From positions 1 through 24,432 of the IMG/VR virus record IMGVR_UViG_3300015360_000193: a stretch of DNA of 24,432 nt; one strand, written 5' to 3'. Under the pieces are notes generated by a model. It was not told the origin of the DNA and made no database searches. It saw only the letters and a program-made list of their open reading frames with translations. A program made the translations under genes and the position numbers. Source of the DNA: a virus. This document shows positions 10,812 to 23,564 of this stretch, piece by piece. Positions within the stretch are counted from its first letter, which is position 1. Every line of letters begins with the position of its first letter.

Positions 10812-10860
10812 TGATTGACGTGGTATCGTCCGTAGACGAACTAGAGGAAGGTTGCCCGAT

Positions 10861-11922
10861 ATGCTAGCGCTAGATCACTTTGCGGGGCCGGGGGGATGGA
10901 GCCTAGCGTGCGAGCGCTTGGGTATCCTCGAGGACGGCGTAGAGATTGACGAGACGGCCGTAGCCACCCGTACGGCCGCTGGCTTTAGCACCATCGGCCG
11001 GGACGTACGTACCTCGCCGGTTACGATCCACGATCTTTACATAGCGAGCCCGCCGTGCCAGACCTTTAGCGCGGCCGGTTCAGGTAGCGGTAGGAAGGCC
11101 CTAGACGCCGTTCTAAGCGCCGTAGACGCCTTCCGAGGGCCGGAGGACCAATGGCCCACCTACGAGGCTCTGACGGCTCTCCTAGGCGACGAGCGTACCG
11201 CGCTCGTACTCGTGCCCTTGCGCCATATCCTGACCGAGCGACCTAGGTACGTGGCCCTTGAGCAAGTGCCTACGGTGCTGCCCGTGTGGAAAGCCATCGG
11301 CGCGGTACTTGAGGAATACGGCTATGACTGGCAGGCCGCGAACCTATCCGCCGAGCAATACGGAGTGCCCCAAACGCGCAAGCGGGCCGTACTCGTGGCC
11401 TCACGCGTAGGCCCTGCCAACTTGCCTATGCCTACTCACTCGAAGTATTACTCGAGGTCACCCGAGCGCGTAGACGCTGACGTAAAGCCTTGGGTATCTA
11501 TGGCGGAGGCCCTAGGGTGGACCGCGCCTACCCCGGCTTCCGGCCTACGCCTTCCACGCTGGCCAGAGGCCGAGCGGGAAGCCTTTACCGAGCTAGGCCA
11601 AGAGCGTACGTACCAAGCGGAGGTAGCCGAGGACAAGCCTTGGACGCGCTCAAGGCCCGCCACGACGATAGCCACCCGTGACCTAGTGGCGGACCCTGGC
11701 GCGAACGCTAACCGCTTTAACGGGGCCACGAAGAGCCGTAACGATGGCGTACGGGTGACCGTGGCCGAGGCCGGGGTATTGCAGTCCTTCCCCGCTGACT
11801 TCCCGTGGCAGGGGTCCAAGACCAAGCAATATCAGCAGGTAGGTAACGCTATCCCGCCGCTCTTGGCCGAAGCCGTGCTCTCGGCTTTGCTAGAGCTTGA
11901 CCTAATCATGTTCGGCAGATAG
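10861..11922 (+). CDS. DNA cytosine-5 methyltransferase
   Basis: 353 aa from the ATG at 10861, preceded by GAGGAAGG 8 nt upstream; a TTG at 10852 is also in frame. It moves methyl from SAM to C5 of cytosine. Visible motifs are I (DHFAGPGGWSLAC), IV with the catalytic Cys in SPPCQTFS (C66), VI as ALEQVP (E134; Gln replaces the usual Asn of ENV), VIII (QYGVPQTRKRAVLVA) and X (VGNAIPPLLAEAV). Length and order fit PF00145. No restriction enzyme lies next to it, so it is probably an orphan methylase protecting phage DNA from host restriction. The target-recognition stretch is between about 200 and 290; the target cannot be told. Confidence 0.93.
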   Translation: MLALDHFAGPGGWSLACERLGILEDGVEIDETAVATRTAAGFSTIGRDVRTSPVTIHDLYIASPPCQTFSAAGSGSGRKALDAVLSAVDAFRGPEDQWPTYEALTALLGDERTALVLVPLRHILTERPRYVALEQVPTVLPVWKAIGAVLEEYGYDWQAANLSAEQYGVPQTRKRAVLVASRVGPANLPMPTHSKYYSRSPERVDADVKPWVSMAEALGWTAPTPASGLRLPRWPEAEREAFTELGQERTYQAEVAEDKPWTRSRPATTIATRDLVADPGANANRFNGATKSRNDGVRVTVAEAGVLQSFPADFPWQGSKTKQYQQVGNAIPPLLAEAVLSALLELDLIMFGR

Positions 11923-12026: not shown

Positions 12027-12425
12027 GTGGAAAAGGACGAAGAGGTACGCCGGCTTAGGCGTAGCCAGCGTGCGGACGATTCCGACGCGGTACGCCGGCA
12101 GAGGTTCGGCAGGCGTCAAGTCGCTACCGTCCGGCTCTCTACTGCCTACGCTGGCTTGGGAGACTCGACGTATGACCCTGGCGCGATGATAGAAGAGGGC
12201 AGCCCTACGAGCGCCGTAGAGGCGGTAAGGCGCGCTAGGCTATTCGAGGTATCGGCTATCGTCGCTGGCCTCTCAGAAGAGCTTAGAGAGGCTTACAGGA
12301 TGATCTATGCGGAACGGCTGAGTATCCGGCAGGCAGCGGAGCTGGCAAAGGTGGCGCCGGGTACGATGCAGTACCGGCTCGGCCAGGTTCAGGCAGCGGT
12401 TAGGAAGGGGCTCGAGCATGAGTAA
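12027..12425 (+). CDS. Sigma-70 region 4-like DNA-binding protein
   Basis: 132 aa, GTG start at 12027 with GGGAGG 10 nt upstream. Residues 82-130 read like sigma region 4: LSEELREAYRMIYAERLSIR, then QAAELAKVAPGTMQYRLGQ and AAVRKGL. This is the usual acidic/hydrophobic helix, the eglS-type turn, and a recognition helix ending in the RL pair. The N-terminal 60 residues are Arg-rich and match no sigma region 2. The protein may therefore bind DNA or RNA polymerase to redirect transcription to phage promoters, or be a simpler HTH regulator. Its stop overlaps the next start (ATGAGTAA). The family call is from motif pattern only. Confidence 0.65.
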   Translation: MEKDEEVRRLRRSQRADDSDAVRRQRFGRRQVATVRLSTAYAGLGDSTYDPGAMIEEGSPTSAVEAVRRARLFEVSAIVAGLSEELREAYRMIYAERLSIRQAAELAKVAPGTMQYRLGQVQAAVRKGLEHE

Positions 12426-16719: not shown

Positions 16720-16973
16720 CCATAGTAGACATATGTCCCGTAAACGGTTGCGACTTACGCGGTGACCCGATAGACCCTGAGTACGCGGACTACTACGCCG
16801 AGGGTGCGCGGTACTACTCCAAGATGATCGGCGTAGAGGTCCAAGGGGTCTACGATGGCGTGCTCTACTGGACTTGCTCTACCTGTGGAGTGAGCTGGCC
16901 AAGGTTTGACGCGCCCCATAGGCTCCACTACGAAGCGCTTAAGTACGTAGGCGTAGCCTGCCGCTGCCCATGA
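16716..16973 (+). CDS. Cys-rich zinc-binding miniprotein
   Basis: 85 aa from the ATG at 16716, which has GGAGGGG 8 nt upstream and overlaps the prim-pol stop (ATGA). N-terminal CPVNGC and later WTCSTCGVSWPRF give two Cys pairs about 45 residues apart, a zinc-ribbon layout. The YSKMIG and WPRF elements are seen in small actinophage proteins of unknown role. It overlaps endonuclease VII by 4 bp, so the two are probably translated together. Confidence 0.65.
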   Translation: MTIVDICPVNGCDLRGDPIDPEYADYYAEGARYYSKMIGVEVQGVYDGVLYWTCSTCGVSWPRFDAPHRLHYEALKYVGVACRCP

Positions 16974-17323
16974 CTAGGCTTAAGCGCCTCCAAGCCGAGG
17001 CCGACAAGCGCGGCGTAGTCCAGCCTAGGCCGGCAACCGTGGCCAAGTACGGGTGGACGCTCGAGGACTGGCTAGGCCAGCTCGAGGGTAACCGCTGGCG
17101 TTGCCCGATATGCCTACGAGCTCCGAGGACCGGCAAGTACGTCACTGACCACGAGCACGTAAGAGGCTGGGCAACCATGCCCGACGAAGAGCGTAAACTT
17201 TACGTTAGGGGCTTGACTTGCTGGACGTGTAACCGTTACCTTTTGGCTAGAGATATCAGCGTAGCCACCGCGCGTAACGTGGTAAGCTACCTTGAGACCT
17301 ACGACGCCAGGAGGCCAAAGTAA
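16970..17323 (+). CDS. Recombination endonuclease VII
   Basis: 117 aa, ATG at 16970 overlapping the upstream stop. It resolves branched DNA such as Holliday junctions before packaging. The signature is CPICLRAPRTGKYVTDHEHV (first Cys pair plus D-H-x-H), then VRGLTCWTCNRYL (second Cys pair and Asn), as in PF02945. The upstream TLEDWLGQLEGNRWRCPIC is also usual for the family. Length is typical of the stand-alone phage form. It is the last gene with the normal base composition before the atypical block. Confidence 0.92.
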   Translation: MTRLKRLQAEADKRGVVQPRPATVAKYGWTLEDWLGQLEGNRWRCPICLRAPRTGKYVTDHEHVRGWATMPDEERKLYVRGLTCWTCNRYLLARDISVATARNVVSYLETYDARRPK

Positions 17324-17325
17324 AC

Positions 17326-17697
17326 ATGAGTGCATACACCGAGGACGACGTAACCCTCGCACGACAGGTAGGCTACGACTTAGGCTACGACGATGGCTAC
17401 AAAGATGGCCGGCTCGATGGCTTGAGCGAGGCAGTAGGGGCAGTCAGGCGGGTGCAGTTCTCGCCCGAGCCGCCGCTGGCTAACACTGTGCGGGCAGCAA
17501 CGCTCCGAGTGGGTGACCGCTTTATGGCCGAAACCCCCGACGAAACCTTCCCAGCGTCACTGAGGGCCCACTTCGGCTGGGGAATGGTGCACGGATGTAT
17601 GGACTGGCAGTGCGCCCGTGAGGACGGAACGGAGTTCGTCTACTCCATCCACATCGACGCACCAGTGACACTGATTGAGGAAGGTGACAAGGCATGA
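17326..17697 (+). CDS. Probable chimeric small protein at the left edge of the atypical block
   Basis: 123 aa, ATG at 17326 just after endonuclease VII, with AGGAGG 11 nt upstream. Residues 1-37 are acidic and Gly/Asp/Tyr-rich (DLGYDDGYKDGRLDGLSE) and use GTA, CTC and CGA codons like the phage. From about residue 40 the style changes to GTG/GTC/CTG-rich codons, with an unrelated second half (LRVGDRFMAETPDETF, FGWGMVHGCMDW). A recombination joint inside the gene is inferred from this; neither half is recognised. It overlaps the next start by 4 bp. Confidence 0.55.
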   Translation: MSAYTEDDVTLARQVGYDLGYDDGYKDGRLDGLSEAVGAVRRVQFSPEPPLANTVRAATLRVGDRFMAETPDETFPASLRAHFGWGMVHGCMDWQCAREDGTEFVYSIHIDAPVTLIEEGDKA

Positions 17698-17882
17698 GCT
17701 CGTCATACGAGCTGGCCCCCGCGGGAGAGGTTTTTATGGACGGTAAGGCTACCTACTATCTTCGGCGCATCGGCTCGCCGGGTATCGCCGGGACCATCTT
17801 TCTTACGCCTGAGCACGCCACCGCGCTAGCCCAGCAGTTGCGCGCAGGGCGGATCAAACCACAACCACCAACAGGAGAATAA
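17694..17882 (+). CDS. Small hypothetical protein
   Basis: 62 aa, ATG at 17694 overlapping the upstream stop, with a strong GAGGAAGG 9 nt upstream. A beta-hairpin-like pattern (EVFMDGKATYYLRRIGSP, GIAGTIFLTPEHA) precedes a helix (ATALAQQLRAG). No motif recognised. It still contains one CTAG, so it may be native or near the joint. Confidence 0.5.
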   Translation: MSSSYELAPAGEVFMDGKATYYLRRIGSPGIAGTIFLTPEHATALAQQLRAGRIKPQPPTGE

Positions 17883-17886
17883 TCAG

Positions 17887-18129
17887 ATGCCAGTACGAGT
17901 GCAACCAACAGACGCCGACGCCATCATCTTTGACTCAGCCACCAGGTGGTACATTGACGACGAACGACAGTTGCATATCGTCGATGGTGCGGGAGCCCCT
18001 GTTGCCGCTTTCTCTGTCAACGCTTGGCAGTCAGTTCAGAAAAAGGTAGGCGCCCTTGTTTTTGGTCACCCTGACCAAAGTAGGGGTGCATCCGACAGTG
18101 ATACCGCGCAATCGGATACCCGCCCGTGA
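17887..18129 (+). CDS. Small hypothetical protein
   Basis: 80 aa, ATG at 17887 with AGGAG 9 nt upstream. The centre is strand-rich and polar (AIIFDSATRWYIDDERQLHI, VDGAGAPVAAFSVNAW); the last 20 residues are Ser/Asp/Thr-rich and disordered. No motif recognised. Its stop overlaps the next GTG start (GTGA). Confidence 0.5.
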   Translation: MPVRVQPTDADAIIFDSATRWYIDDERQLHIVDGAGAPVAAFSVNAWQSVQKKVGALVFGHPDQSRGASDSDTAQSDTRP

Positions 18130-18620
18130 CAAGCCCTCCCGGCCACTCGAGCCGTCTCGGCCCCGCACGCTCAGTAACCGCCGAGTTTAGAGAGGGTGCG
18201 GCCGATCAAGTAACCGTGACTGTCGTCCTCACCTACGACATCTGGTGCTGCAACGGCACACACGAGCTAGCAGACGCGGCGGCTGCCGTATCTGCACTAC
18301 TGAACCAAGACTTCGCAAACGTGGGCGGTGGCGGGGCACCCCCAGAACCACCGGCGGGGGGAGATCAGGGCCTAGCACCCCTAGCTCCTCCCCCCTCCGG
18401 TGTCTACCGCCTGACCGCCGCCCTCCCCATCACCACCGGACAAGTCAAACTGGTCAACGTCCTCGCCGCCGGTGCCGCCATCACTGACCGTGCCCTCCTA
18501 CACGAAGGGATCTCGAAACTGATAGGGCGGGAAGTGCACAGCGTCAAACACCTCACCAAAGCCGAGGCCACCACAGTCATCGAGTCGCTACAGACAAGGC
18601 AACCGAAGGAGGCATCGTGA
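18126..18620 (+). CDS. Hypothetical protein with a phage-type C-terminal helix motif
   Basis: 164 aa, GTG start at 18126. Residues 20-60 are beta-rich (DQVTVTVVLTYDIWCCNG) and a Gly/Pro-rich linker lies at about 65-90. The end reads HEGISKLIGREVHSVKHLTK then AEATTVIESL. This ISKLIGRxVxSxxxLTKAEAxxVIxxL pattern ends many actinophage proteins, including some recombination or ssDNA-binding ones, as I recall. The rest is not recognised, so no function is assigned. It carries the last two CTAGs of the block (18372 and 18380). Confidence 0.5.
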   Translation: MTSPPGHSSRLGPARSVTAEFREGAADQVTVTVVLTYDIWCCNGTHELADAAAAVSALLNQDFANVGGGGAPPEPPAGGDQGLAPLAPPPSGVYRLTAALPITTGQVKLVNVLAAGAAITDRALLHEGISKLIGREVHSVKHLTKAEATTVIESLQTRQPKEAS

Positions 18621-18934
18621 TCCGCCCCGTTGACGCTTGGGAGTTGGTCTGCGACTGGCCCGAGTGCGAGAGCACTGCCGATGACGGCTACAACACCATC
18701 TACGCCGACAATCCGTATGACCCCGGTGAGATTGCGGAGTACGCCGACTGGCTCACGTCGAAAGACGGGGCCAGCCACTACTGCTGGGAGCATCCGACGA
18801 CGCGGGCCAGCGACCACACCGGTGGCTTAGCGCTCCCCGATCCGCCGTACCTGCTCATACACGAAGGCGACACCGACAATCCGGTGATGGATGACGGCAG
18901 CGTGACGCTGGTTGAGGATAGTGACGGGGCATGA
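18617..18934 (+). CDS. Cys/His-rich small protein
   Basis: 105 aa, GTG at 18617 with AAGGAGG 4-5 nt upstream, overlapping the previous stop. CDWPEC near residue 12 and HYCWEH near residue 55 form a C-x4-C and C-x2-H pair that could hold zinc, a layout common in actinophage miniproteins. The rest is very acidic (YADNPYDPGEIAEYADW; DDGSVTLVEDSDGA). Function unknown. Its stop overlaps the next start by 4 bp. Confidence 0.55.
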   Translation: MIRPVDAWELVCDWPECESTADDGYNTIYADNPYDPGEIAEYADWLTSKDGASHYCWEHPTTRASDHTGGLALPDPPYLLIHEGDTDNPVMDDGSVTLVEDSDGA

Positions 18935-19056
18935 GGCGACTACTGACAATGTTCTACACGCGCAAGTGCGACGGCAAGTGCGGGAATGAGAGTGGTCATA
19001 ACGCACATCTGACGTGGCTTGGGCGTCGTCGGTACACCCGACCGGCTGGGTGGTGA
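18931..19056 (+). CDS. 41-aa Cys/His miniprotein
   Basis: ATG at 18931 overlaps the preceding TGA (ATGA), and the frame closes at TGA 19054-19056. The product begins MRRLLTMFYTRKCDGKCGNE and has C-x3-C, then SGHNAH and a basic tail (GRRRYTRP). The overlap, the Cys pair and the packed context support a real gene. No function can be given. Confidence 0.45.
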   Translation: MRRLLTMFYTRKCDGKCGNESGHNAHLTWLGRRRYTRPAGW

Positions 19057-19062
19057 CAGGGC

Positions 19063-19275
19063 ATGAGTGACTGGACCGACGACGCACCGATTATCCCGCT
19101 GGACCGCGAACAATGGGGCATTGTGATAGACGCGCTGATCGAACATGCGGCCAGCGCTGCCGCTCGAAAGCACGTCAACCCTGAGTCAACTTCCGACGTT
19201 CGGGTCACTATGTGTAACGACCTGATTAGCCTGCTAAACGGCCGGCTGGGGAGTTCTGGTTCTCCGAGAGGATGA
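19063..19275 (+). CDS. Small acidic helical protein
   Basis: 70 aa, ATG at 19063, 6 nt after the previous stop. Contains PIIPLDREQWGIVIDALIEH followed by an Ala-rich helix, then DVRVTMCNDLISLLNGRLGS. No motif recognised. The end overlaps an ATG at 19272, but the next gene probably starts at 19278. Confidence 0.45.
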   Translation: MSDWTDDAPIIPLDREQWGIVIDALIEHAASAAARKHVNPESTSDVRVTMCNDLISLLNGRLGSSGSPRG

Positions 19276-19277
19276 AA

Positions 19278-19517
19278 ATGAGCGCGGATAACTACTGGTT
19301 GGTTGTTGCCCACCCAGATGGTGACGGATTTACCTACTGTATGCGGTTTGCGTCAGACGACACACCACACGACCCGTCTGCGTTGCCGCGCAATATGACC
19401 AAGTACGACACAAGGGCTGATGCTGTCGAAGCTGCGGTACTGGATGATGCCTACACCGAGTACGGCCCGGTCATTCACGTTGACATTCGTCCCCGTCGAG
19501 AAGGATGGACATTATGA
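19278..19517 (+). CDS. Small hypothetical protein
   Basis: 79 aa from the ATG at 19278, which has GAGAGG 6 nt upstream; the ATG at 19272 is in frame but abuts that site. Starts MSADNYWLVVAHPDGDGFTY, then MRFASDD, and later YGPVIHVDIRP. An alpha/beta pattern with many Asp residues; no family recognised. Its stop overlaps the next ATG (ATGA). Confidence 0.5.
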   Translation: MSADNYWLVVAHPDGDGFTYCMRFASDDTPHDPSALPRNMTKYDTRADAVEAAVLDDAYTEYGPVIHVDIRPRREGWTL

Positions 19518-19798
19518 ACTACACGCACGCCGATCTGCTGGCAGGAGCGCAGGAGGGGCGGGAGCGGGCCAAGGGCGACCCCTACGGGTCGATCAAGGCT
19601 GAGCAAGCCCGCGATGACCACGCCGATGACCTGGCCGCGACGCTGGACCGGCACAAGCCAATCAGTCCACCGGCCTACCCCGCCTGGTACCCCGCCTGGT
19701 GCGCCGGGTGCGACCACCTTTGGGACGAGTGCCCCGACGCCATCCAGGTGGCCGACCGGCTGACCGTGTGGGGCGTGCTCGATGGTGACGGAGCATGA
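19514..19798 (+). CDS. Small Cys-containing hypothetical protein
   Basis: 94 aa from the ATG at 19514 (AAGGA 8 nt upstream, ATGA overlap); an ATG three codons earlier is less well placed. The N-terminus is helical (LLAGAQEGRERAKGDPYG). The middle has PPAYPAWYPAWCAGCDHLWD, with a tandem PAWYPAW and a C-x2-C, and a third Cys follows in DECPDA. Zinc binding is possible; the function is unknown. Confidence 0.5.
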   Translation: MNYTHADLLAGAQEGRERAKGDPYGSIKAEQARDDHADDLAATLDRHKPISPPAYPAWYPAWCAGCDHLWDECPDAIQVADRLTVWGVLDGDGA

Positions 19799-19800
19799 GA

Positions 19801-19962
19801 ATGAGGGTCACCTTCACAACGACGATTGACGAAACTGATCCGGGCGATCCAGCCGATCTCGACAACCTGGTTGATGCCCTATGGGATGTGGCAACGGCAC
19901 ATGGCGCCTACGACCACGGGGGATTCTCCGGTCCCGATGATGGGGGTGACCGAGATGACTGA
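19801..19962 (+). CDS. 53-aa acidic miniprotein
   Basis: ATG at 19801 with GGAG 7 nt upstream; an ATG at 19795 overlaps the previous stop but is too near that site. The product starts MRVTFTTTIDETDPGDPADL, then a helix and a Gly/Asp tail, closing at TGA 19960-19962. It is very acidic, and a DNA-mimic or decoy role is only a thought. No family recognised. Confidence 0.4.
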   Translation: MRVTFTTTIDETDPGDPADLDNLVDALWDVATAHGAYDHGGFSGPDDGGDRDD

Positions 19963-20137
19963 CTACGGCCCCACCGCCGTCTACGAGTGCTGCCGACTGT
20001 GGACCGTTTACACGCTCTGGCCTATCGGACGCTGCGGTGGATGTGGACAACGACCCGAGTGGAAGGCAGCCGAGGAAGCATCGCCCGTTGCCGATGCGTT
20101 TGATCGCCAGTTTACGGCATGGATGGAGTGGCGATGA
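19955..20137 (+). CDS. Small Cys-rich protein
   Basis: 60 aa from the ATG at 19955, with GGGGG 8 nt upstream. The frame extends upstream to 19826, but that part overlaps another gene. YECCRLWTVYTL and RCGGCGQRPEW give two Cys pairs for a possible zinc site; the rest is helical (AFDRQFTAWMEW). The stop overlaps the next ATG. Function unknown. Confidence 0.5.
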   Translation: MTDYGPTAVYECCRLWTVYTLWPIGRCGGCGQRPEWKAAEEASPVADAFDRQFTAWMEWR

Positions 20138-20340
20138 GTGACCTACCGTTCAGCTGCCCTAAGTGTGGGCAGCGGTACGGGTTCGGTGACGCCGCCGCAC
20201 TCATCGGGGTGGTCAGGTCAATCCCATTCACCGATACACCCACGCCGTGCTGCGGGACTCTGGACAGCGGCACCCTGACGCGCAGGGACGACGGGGCAGT
20301 GGTGCTGCAATCAGACCTACTGGGAGAGGTTCTGCTGTGA
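20134..20340 (+). CDS. Small zinc-ribbon protein
   Basis: 68 aa from the ATG at 20134 (GGAG 5 nt upstream, ATGA overlap). CPKCGQRYGFGDA near the N-terminus and TPCCG in the middle make a C-x2-C plus CC zinc-ribbon pattern; a strand-rich C-terminus (GAVVLQSDLLGEVLL) follows. The stop overlaps the GTG of the methyltransferase fragment (GTGA). Confidence 0.55.
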   Translation: MSDLPFSCPKCGQRYGFGDAAALIGVVRSIPFTDTPTPCCGTLDSGTLTRRDDGAVVLQSDLLGEVLL

Positions 20341-20576
20341 CCGTCGAGCCCTACTACCAGGACGAGTCCGTCACCCTGTACCACGGCGACTGTCTGGAGT
20401 CTATGGCGTCGATGGATTCAGCTTCTTTCGACCTAATCTTCACGTCCCCTCCCTACAACCTCGGGGTCGGCGGCCACTTCCCGAAGCCGAACGGGAGGAG
20501 GGGACTGTGGGACGGCGGCGCGCTGCGCGATGGCTACGCCGACCACCGCTCCGCTAATCAGAGAGGCAGGCGAAAA
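20337..20576 (+). pseudogene. Truncated DNA methyltransferase, in frame with polymerase A
   Basis: 80 codons from a GTG at 20337 with a strong GGGAGAGG 7 nt upstream. SVTLYHGDCLESM, then FDLIFTSPPYNLG, is the start of an amino-type (N4-cytosine or N6-adenine) methyltransferase whose motif IV is SPPY. The family continues for another 150-200 residues to the SAM-binding FxGxG motif, which is absent here. After DGYADH the sequence turns into RSANQRGRRK and then, with no stop, into polymerase A. Methylation activity is not expected from this piece. It is either the N-terminal extension of a fusion protein or a dead remnant at a recombination joint. Confidence 0.8.
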
Positions 20577-22454
20577 GTGACGTACGAAGTCCTAGACATA
20601 GAAAACGTAGGCGAGCCCCACGAGGGCCGGCTAATATGCGTCGGCCTCGGAGACCGCGCCTACGTACCAAACGGCCCCGGCTGGCAAGACTGCCTAGACC
20701 GGCTCGCTAACCCCGATATCGGAAAGATCGTCTTTACCAAGCACGATCACCGCTACCTACTGCTGGCCGGCTACGAGGTAAACGGGCCGATAGTTGACGC
20801 TCAAGCTATGGCATGGGTAGTAGACGAGCGGACAGACCTAGACCTAGCCACCCTGAGCCAGCTCTACGTACCTCACACCGTCAAGCGCTCCCGTATCAAA
20901 AGCAAGGCCGGAGTCATTGTCTTTGAGTGCGATAACGGAGAGTGGCTACCGCTCGAGGACGCGCCCATAGACGAGGTATGCGCCTATAACGTCCAAGACC
21001 TCAAGAGCACCGAAGCGCTAGCCCTCGAGCTCAAGCGGATTATACGTTTTGAGGGCCTAGCAGACTACTACGAGCACGACGTATTACCCTTTACCGAGGT
21101 ACTCGTTAAGGCCGAGGTACGAGGTCTGCCTATCGACCTCCCCCAAACAGTAACGCTACGCGAGCGCCTCGAGGAAGAGGCGGACTACTACGAGTATCGC
21201 CTACGCGCCGAGGGTGGCCTACCCGAAGAGTTTAACCTTAATAGCGCCACGCAGCTAAGCGCCTACCTTTATAACCGTACCTACACTTTCGAGCGCCGGG
21301 TAGAGGTCTCAAAGGAAGAGCGGGGAGCCCTCAAGGCTCGGCTAGCCAGCGGGGAGACCGTAGAGCTGGCCGGGATGACACTAGAAAAGGTAGGGACCAA
21401 GTACGCCACCGGCTCGGCCAGCCTGCCGGGTCTAGGCTTGAGCACCGAGACCGAGACTGATCGTGGCCAGAAGTCCACAAGCGCTAAGGTACTCCGAGTA
21501 GAGCAAGAGCACCCGTGGGTAGACCTCTTGCTCGAGCGGGCCAAGCGCGTAACCGTTGCCGGCTACCTGGCAGGCTTCGAGAAAAGGACCGTGGCCGGCC
21601 GCGTATACGGCCGCTTTAACCAGACCGGGACCAAGACCGGCCGGCTTAGCTCTTCCTCCCCGAACCTCCAAAACGTACCGGCGCGGGGAGACCTAGGAAG
21701 GGCCTGCCGGGAGCTTTTCAGGCCAGAGCCGGGTACTGGCTTTTTACACGGGGACTACGGCCAGCTCGAGCCACGGCTTATGGCCCACTTTTCGTGTGAT
21801 CCGGCCCTAGTTTCGATCTTTGACGAAAAGGATGACATATACCTACGTACCGCGGTTATGCTCTGGGGCGACACGCTACCGGAGGGTGCTCGAAACGTAT
21901 GTAAGGTGCTCGTGCTGGCCCTTGGCTATGGCTCCGGCGCCGAGACTTTGCACCGGCAGCTTGCCGAGGCTGGCTTTCGCTTCCCGTTGCACGAGGTAGA
22001 GACCATGCTTGCGCGCCTTAAAGGGGTCTACGCGCGGCTCTTCGAGTGGAAAGAGGACGTGATAGCCACCGCGGCCAACGAGGGCTACGTAGAGACCCTG
22101 GCAGGCCATAGGCGCCGCTTTAGCAAGCGCCACGAGCGCCACCGCGGGGAGAGCTGGCGCCAGCAGGCTGCGGACGAGCGGCAGGCCGTAAACGCCGTCA
22201 TTCAGGGGAGCGCTGCCGATATCGTCGGTAGGACCATGATGGCCGTAGACAGGGAATACGGGGAAGAGCTTAGGCTCTTGGCCCAGGTCCATGATGAGCT
22301 ACTCTTAGAGTATGACGTAAACCCCGAGCTTGACCCTATCTGCTACGTATATAGGCTACAGTGGCTGGCAGAGTCGGGCCACGGCTTTAAGCTACGGGTA
22401 CCGCTAGAGTTTATCCCCAAGGTAGTACCGACTTGGGCCGAGGGTAAGGACTAA
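20577..22454 (+). CDS. polA: DNA polymerase A with 3'-5' exonuclease domain
   Basis: 625 aa from the GTG at 20577 (AGGCAGG 6 nt upstream); the frame stays open upstream into the methyltransferase fragment. The N-terminal exonuclease has LDIEN (D7, E9), a KHDHRYLLLAGY Exo II-like region, VDAQ (D74) and YNVQD (Y137, D141). No 5'-3' exonuclease domain is present. The polymerase has motif A HGDYGQLEPR (D393), an O-helix RNVCKVLVLALGYG (R439, K443, Y451) and motif C QVHDELL (H572, D573). The O-helix residue equivalent to E. coli Phe762 is Leu447. It should copy the phage genome with the prim-pol helicase. Composition returns to phage style at this gene. Confidence 0.93.
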   Translation: MTYEVLDIENVGEPHEGRLICVGLGDRAYVPNGPGWQDCLDRLANPDIGKIVFTKHDHRYLLLAGYEVNGPIVDAQAMAWVVDERTDLDLATLSQLYVPHTVKRSRIKSKAGVIVFECDNGEWLPLEDAPIDEVCAYNVQDLKSTEALALELKRIIRFEGLADYYEHDVLPFTEVLVKAEVRGLPIDLPQTVTLRERLEEEADYYEYRLRAEGGLPEEFNLNSATQLSAYLYNRTYTFERRVEVSKEERGALKARLASGETVELAGMTLEKVGTKYATGSASLPGLGLSTETETDRGQKSTSAKVLRVEQEHPWVDLLLERAKRVTVAGYLAGFEKRTVAGRVYGRFNQTGTKTGRLSSSSPNLQNVPARGDLGRACRELFRPEPGTGFLHGDYGQLEPRLMAHFSCDPALVSIFDEKDDIYLRTAVMLWGDTLPEGARNVCKVLVLALGYGSGAETLHRQLAEAGFRFPLHEVETMLARLKGVYARLFEWKEDVIATAANEGYVETLAGHRRRFSKRHERHRGESWRQQAADERQAVNAVIQGSAADIVGRTMMAVDREYGEELRLLAQVHDELLLEYDVNPELDPICYVYRLQWLAESGHGFKLRVPLEFIPKVVPTWAEGKD

Positions 22455-22458
22455 GACT

Positions 22459-23028
22459 ATGCCACCTACACTACCGCGTATTGCCGTCGATCTTGACGGA
22501 GTGGTCTACGACTGGGGCGGTACTGTCCGCTATCTGATCCGAGAGCACCACGGTATAGACTTGCCTGTCTCCGATCACTGGGACTACGTAGAGGAAAACG
22601 TACCGCCCGAGGTCTGGCGTTGGCTCTGGACGGAAGGCGTAGAGCTGGGGCTCTTCCGCTACGGCCACCATATCAAGGGCTCGGTAGACGGCTTGAGAGA
22701 GCTGGCTAAGGTAGGCTCCCTCGAGGTAGTGACACACCGGCCGCGCGCAGCGCTCCAAGACACGCTACGTTTTATCGCTAACCTGCCGGACGTTTTCGCC
22801 GGCGTCCACTTCCTGACGAAGAACGAGCCTAAGAGCATCGTACGCGCCGATCTGTACCTAGACGATGCTCCGCACGTTATCGAAAACGTGCTAGACTTCG
22901 GCGCTTCGGCGGTAGTCTTTGACCAAGAGTGGAATCAGTACGTAGACGGTAGAGCGTTTCGAGCTCACGGCTGGCTAGAAGTGCCGATCATGGCAAAGCT
23001 GGCCCTATCTTTGGGAAGAGGGGCGTAA
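22459..23028 (+). CDS. 5'(3')-deoxyribonucleotidase-like HAD phosphatase
   Basis: 189 aa, ATG at 22459 with AAGGA 9 nt upstream. The HAD motif I is AVDLDGVVYDW (nucleophile D11, D13), motif II LEVVTHRP, and motif IV DLYLDDAPHVIE. The overall layout fits the NT5C family (PF06941), which removes phosphate from deoxynucleoside monophosphates. Beside the diphosphohydrolase and polymerase it probably alters the host dNTP pool. Its stop overlaps the next ATG by one base. Confidence 0.85.
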   Translation: MPPTLPRIAVDLDGVVYDWGGTVRYLIREHHGIDLPVSDHWDYVEENVPPEVWRWLWTEGVELGLFRYGHHIKGSVDGLRELAKVGSLEVVTHRPRAALQDTLRFIANLPDVFAGVHFLTKNEPKSIVRADLYLDDAPHVIENVLDFGASAVVFDQEWNQYVDGRAFRAHGWLEVPIMAKLALSLGRGA

Positions 23029-23564
23029 TGGCAGAGGAAGAGGTACGCGTAACCTCGAGCACGGGAGGCCAGAAAGGGTCCAAGGGTGCCAGGTATGACC
23101 TTATTCCTACCGCGCCGCTCGAGGCTCTAGCCCGCCACTACGGCAAAGGGGCCGCTAAGTACGAGCAAGTTAACGGCCGGGATAACTGGCGTAACGGCTA
23201 CGAGTGGTCTCTATCCTACGCCGCCCTGCAAAGGCACCTAGCCGCGTTTTGGAGCGGAGAGGACATAGACGAAGAGACCGGGAGCGCGCACCTAGTAGCG
23301 GCCGCGTGGCACGCGTTTACGTTGCTCGAGTTTATGGAGCACTATCCCGAGCTGGACGACAGGCAAGACCTACTCTACGAGCTCGGCCCTTGCGACTTTG
23401 CCGCCAGCCAGCCTCGCGTATCTGTAGGTGTTTTGCTCGAGCCTGGGAGCGACTACCGGCAGCCGTCCGAGCGCCACGACGCTAAGACACTGACGCCGCC
23501 GATGATCGGAACGCCGCGCCAGGAATCGCACGGGCTCGCGGCTAAGTGGGCCGGCCGTGGCTAA
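23028..23564 (+). CDS. dATP/dGTP diphosphohydrolase-like protein (PF18909 family)
   Basis: 178 aa, ATG at 23028 (TAATG). The N-terminal SSTGGQKGSKGARYDLIPTA is followed by LEALARHYGKGAAKYE, NGRDNWRNGYEWSLSYAALQ, RHLAAFWSGEDIDEETGSAH, and a LVAAAWHAFTLLEF helix. This is the full pattern of the phage family once called DUF5664, now named for dATP/dGTP diphosphohydrolases. The last 60 residues are extra and unstructured. In phages with 2-aminoadenine DNA a related enzyme (MazZ) makes dGMP for base synthesis. No purZ is seen in this window, so a general pool-shaping role is safer. Confidence 0.8.
   Translation: MAEEEVRVTSSTGGQKGSKGARYDLIPTAPLEALARHYGKGAAKYEQVNGRDNWRNGYEWSLSYAALQRHLAAFWSGEDIDEETGSAHLVAAAWHAFTLLEFMEHYPELDDRQDLLYELGPCDFAASQPRVSVGVLLEPGSDYRQPSERHDAKTLTPPMIGTPRQESHGLAAKWAGRG

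Follow-up and report, generated by a model that had tools for sequence, protein, structure and literature searches.

The window analyzed here, a 24,432-base IMG/VR virus record representing an uncultured phage on a single contig, contains a reading frame in which the beginning of a DNA methyltransferase gene runs directly into a gene for a family A DNA polymerase (polA). This arrangement is best explained, with a probability of roughly 0.84, as a mosaic recombination joint that has left a truncated cargo gene next to polA, and not as a working fusion enzyme, because related phages carry separate, stop-terminated genes upstream of polA and because the truncated gene forms the end of a block of foreign DNA. 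Homology breaks at the joint, the polA start is conserved, only one side has foreign composition and the flanks are syntenic. Composition, codon use and the homology break all mark DNA of different origin on its two sides, each of which is found intact in distant relatives; no close parent was found.

An open frame with two starts

In the list of open reading frames in the window, the frame that ends at 22454 is open from a GTG at 20247. The methyltransferase-like start is the GTG at 20337, which overlaps the stop of the preceding small ORF in a GTGA (Table 1). Counted from this codon, the frame is 705 codons long, of which 80 precede polA, and its translation, VTVEPYYQDESVTLYHGDCLESM...FTSPPYNLG...LRDGYADHRSANQRGRRK-V(20577)TYEVLDIENVG, contains zero stops, just as an earlier note on this DNA had described. 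The same note had credited the methyltransferase GTG with a strong ribosome site. Indeed, the calculated duplex energies at both 20337 and 20577 (-7.6 and -8.2 kcal/mol) are stronger than -7.3, the 5% quantile for random positions. It is plausible that ribosomes starting at 20337 produce a 705-aa polymerase.

Table 1. Features at and around the methyltransferase-polA joint, in window positions
Feature	Positions	Strand	Evidence
Endonuclease VII gene of the resident phage; polA's left neighbor in relatives	16970-17323	+	PF02945, 7.7e-9
ORF across the block's left edge; first ~37 codons resident-like, remainder block-like	17326-17697	+	Best composition breakpoint 17436
Foreign block, ~3.1 kb, of small + strand ORFs	~17436-20555		Segmentation, codon use
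Small ORF, the block's last complete one; stop overlaps methyltransferase start (GTGA)	20119-20340	+	ORF list
Ribosome-site-like GGGAGAGG of the methyltransferase start	20322-20329	+	Duplex -7.6 kcal/mol
Stub: N-terminal ~73 codons of an N6/N4 DNA methylase; TSPPYNLG present, DPFxGSGTT half absent	20337-20555	+	tblastn, phrog_67, alignments
Joint: last methyltransferase-like codon GCT (20553-20555), polA next	20555-20577		Homology ends
Ribosome-site-like GAGAGG of polA	20561-20566	+	Duplex -8.2 kcal/mol
Complete DNA polymerase A (3'-5' exonuclease and polymerase), 625 aa, own GTG	20577-22454	+	PF00476; relatives align from residue 1

The polymerase is complete from its own start

The polymerase part matches PF00476 at 6.7e-69, and its homology to other polymerases begins at GTG 20577. 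Polymerase motifs A, B and C are present in the alignment as GDYGQLEPR, RNVCKVLVLALGYG and QVHDE, and the exonuclease DxE motif lies within LDIENVG, residues 6-12 counted from GTG 20577, where it aligns with LDVETTG of the relatives. A two-row alignment search of IMG/VR with polA returned twelve loci; L005-L007 (primase only, no polA) were left out of the analysis. In nine relatives from IMG/VR, polA is 34-40% identical and its N-terminus aligns to GTG 20577; for instance, the relative L004 begins (M/V)SDYTVLDVETTG where the window has MTYEVLDIENVG. No polA relatives could be confirmed in GTDB genomes. One homologue (L019:5001-7394) carries a long insertion between its exonuclease and polymerase parts and totals 821 aa.

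The upstream piece is the start of a methylase

Residues 1-73 of the upstream piece, referred to here as the stub, share 48-52% identity with the N-termini of intact, ~255-aa actinophage N6/N4 DNA methylases. In tblastn it matches gp64 of Corynebacterium phage Bran (2e-14), with further matches to Gordonia phage BritBrat gp76 and to Mycobacterium phage methylases, and the stub matches PHROG 67, 'DNA methyltransferase' (phrog_67), at 1.6e-16. The catalytic (D/N/S)PP(Y/F/W) motif of PF01555 methylases occurs in it as TSPPYNLG. The full Bran and BritBrat proteins, each of ~255 aa, match PF01555; the domain search gave no PF01555 match for the stub itself. Judged by these similarities, its identity as a methyltransferase is beyond chance.

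In the alignment the stub follows the methylases up to ...DGYADHRSA and then diverges. The BritBrat match stops at 20555, and the Bran match continues weakly beyond the joint to 20609, a stretch that is read as a chance extension. A check of where homology breaks, which the earlier note had proposed, thus places the end of the methyltransferase matches at ~20555 and the beginning of PolA homology at 20577. The note had also held that the missing part includes the SAM-binding motif, and no C-terminal methylase part with DPFxGSGTT was found within the window, all other tblastn pieces having E values of at least 0.7. A second methyltransferase-like ORF, apparently complete and belonging to another DNA methyltransferase family (phrog_116, 7e-54), lies at 10852-11922.

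These observations bear on whether the two parts make up a functional enzyme, either bifunctional or an extended polymerase, to which the methyltransferase piece would add a domain for DNA binding or tethering. The 705 open codons and a good ribosome site at 20337, coupled to the upstream stop, would suit such a protein, but its SAM-binding half is absent and polA retains a start and ribosome site of its own at 20577. The methylase homologues comprised 167 ORFs from viral and cellular contigs. A stop codon closes 162 of them, at a median of ~264 codons past the beginning of the match, and 130 have the SAM motif; a polymerase is attached to none of the 167, nor does any of the nine polymerase relatives show such a fusion. 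In an AlphaFold model of the 705-aa protein most of the polymerase scores pLDDT 75-95, residues 31-97 fall below 50 and the stub spans 28-62; the stub is thus predicted to lack a confident fold, a test limited by a shallow input alignment of 15 sequences. Beyond the open frame nothing supports a functional fusion, and the methyltransferase-polymerase enzyme entertained in the earlier note is very improbable. A search of open papers found no relevant report of a methyltransferase-polA fusion in phages, a weak negative.

A variable slot upstream of polA

The relatives reveal what ordinarily lies upstream of polA. An endonuclease VII homologue, 38-44% identical to that of the window, is located between primase and polA in L004/L018, L013, L015, L017 and L020. 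L004, L013, L017 and L020 all share the order exonuclease-like gene, primase, endonuclease VII, polA, and L015 has a primase match followed by endonuclease VII and polA. In all five relatives read (L004, L013, L015, L017 and L020) the upstream gene stops at or over the polA start, within a GTGA in L004, L015 and L017 and an ATGA in L013 and L020. Endonuclease VII and polA are 180-374 bp apart in L004, L013, L015 and L020, where the intervening DNA contains one or two small ORFs; in the window they are 3.25 kb apart. In L017 this slot holds a complete and separate N6_N4_Mtase gene (L017:3985-4992) with the motif SPPYWGLRDYG, whose stop overlaps the polA start and whose product belongs to another subfamily than the stub. 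The slot thus holds variable cargo, different in each relative, and a methyltransferase within it normally forms a gene of its own. The earlier note had asked whether relatives have a stop between the two genes; all five do, L017 with a full methyltransferase in place.

The order endonuclease VII, methyltransferase, polA in L017 also raises the prospect of decay in place, in which an ancestral methyltransferase of the slot lost its C-terminal part by deletion and the remaining block arrived separately. The stub nevertheless has the composition of the block, with the valine codon GTA at 0/4, and shares more identity with Bran-type methylases (48-52%) than with the SPPYWGLRDYG-bearing enzyme of L017 (38%), which makes this history extremely improbable.

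A remnant of the earlier arrangement may be visible at the joint. The +1 frame at 20569-20580 reads GEK and a stop over a GTGA, and its L004 counterpart (L004 10389-10613) ends in GEAK and a stop. The GEK tail is possibly the end of the former upstream gene, a short likeness that is only suggestive.

The stub ends a block of foreign DNA

Base composition shifts near 17,000-17,500 and again near 20,500. In a two-state segmentation, a block spanning 17436-20529 raises the log-likelihood by 210, compared to 31-56 in flank-only controls. Valine is encoded by GTA in 6/55 cases within the block versus 72/140 in six flanking genes (P = 9e-8), with P = 0.03 for isoleucine ATA and P = 0.06 for leucine CTA; the two flanks share a common composition and codon use. 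The earlier note had placed the feature at 20337-20640. The stub is indeed there, but it forms only the right-hand end of a foreign block, which begins at ~17436, well outside those limits.

A second in-frame scar probably marks the left edge, joining a resident N-terminus to a foreign C-terminus, since both the breakpoint and the switch in GTA use fall inside ORF 17326-17697 (GTA 3/3 in its first 37 codons and 0/7 thereafter, albeit small counts). Searches for the donor of the block yielded only 51-54-bp methylase matches in phages and nothing in plasmids, and the block proteins had no match among phages. No convincing direct repeats that might have guided an insertion occur at the block edges, and no long repeat at either. 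Outside the block, a small ORF at 12027-12425 weakly matches phage RNA polymerase sigma factors (phrog_1190, 0.0005), and the first ~114 residues encoded at 23028-23564 match PHROG 801, of dATP/dGTP pyrophosphohydrolase type (1.7e-44), and related families.

An abrupt change of composition at ~20555 is also what an assembly artefact would produce, had the block or its right edge belonged to a different phage of the same sample and been misjoined to polA. The record is a single uncultured contig, and no second genome has the joint, an exact search of IMG/VR giving 0 matches. However, the flanks agree in composition, codon use and the gene order expected from the relatives, so that an artefact would take two misjoins, both at just the right place; as the window moreover contains no N and neither edge has a long repeat, misassembly is regarded as unlikely.

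A probable recombination scar beside an essential gene

In the preferred account, that of a mosaic joint with a truncated cargo gene, ~3.1 kb of small genes would have been joined between endonuclease VII and polA, their source being another phage, probably an actinobacterial one. The right crossover would have fallen ~73 codons into the incoming methyltransferase gene and attached this piece ~21 bp ahead of the polymerase start. PolA and its ribosome site would have stayed intact, with the stub falling in frame by a one-in-three chance. We infer that the exchange was illegitimate (non-homologous) and occurred without long homology. Reviews of mycobacteriophage genomes describe mosaic joints as common and favor illegitimate recombination near gene boundaries (PMC3029335). 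The immediate block-free ancestor was not seen among the relatives, which are distant (polA 34-40% identical). Translation of the polymerase probably begins mainly at GTG 20577, and an N-extended form of 705 aa, with a passive tail, may be made as well. Selection would demand a whole polA and be indifferent to the stub. The alternative reading offered in the earlier note, in which the joint is a recombination scar and the polymerase has a GTG start of its own, is well supported by the homology break, the polA start of the nine relatives and their separate upstream genes.

Were the fusion functional, it would constitute a new polymerase architecture; the evidence points to a scar. That the 705-aa polymerase is made with a methyltransferase-derived tail that contributes, for example, DNA or partner binding, as the first step of a domain fusion, merits very little credence. 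The joint is most likely ordinary mosaicism, of modest value in two respects: it illustrates how exchange beside an essential replication gene can bring a truncated cargo gene into the same reading frame, and how the cargo carried between endonuclease VII and polA differs from one relative to the next in this phage group.

Comparison with known systems

The stub resembles the actinophage N6/N4 methylases (Bran gp64, BritBrat gp76; PF01555, phrog_67) over its N-terminal ~73 residues, including SPPYN, but lacks their C-terminal two thirds and SAM-binding motif. The polymerase, like the family A polymerases of L004, L013, L017 and L020, is whole from residue 1 and shares their gene neighborhood; unlike in those relatives, the upstream gene of the window enters polA in frame and stop-free. 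As in the mosaic joints of mycobacteriophages (PMC3029335), the origin of the DNA changes abruptly near a gene boundary, no long sequence is shared at the boundary and the essential gene is whole. The present joint differs from them in being seen in one uncultured contig only and in having a truncated cargo gene whose frame continues into a replication gene.
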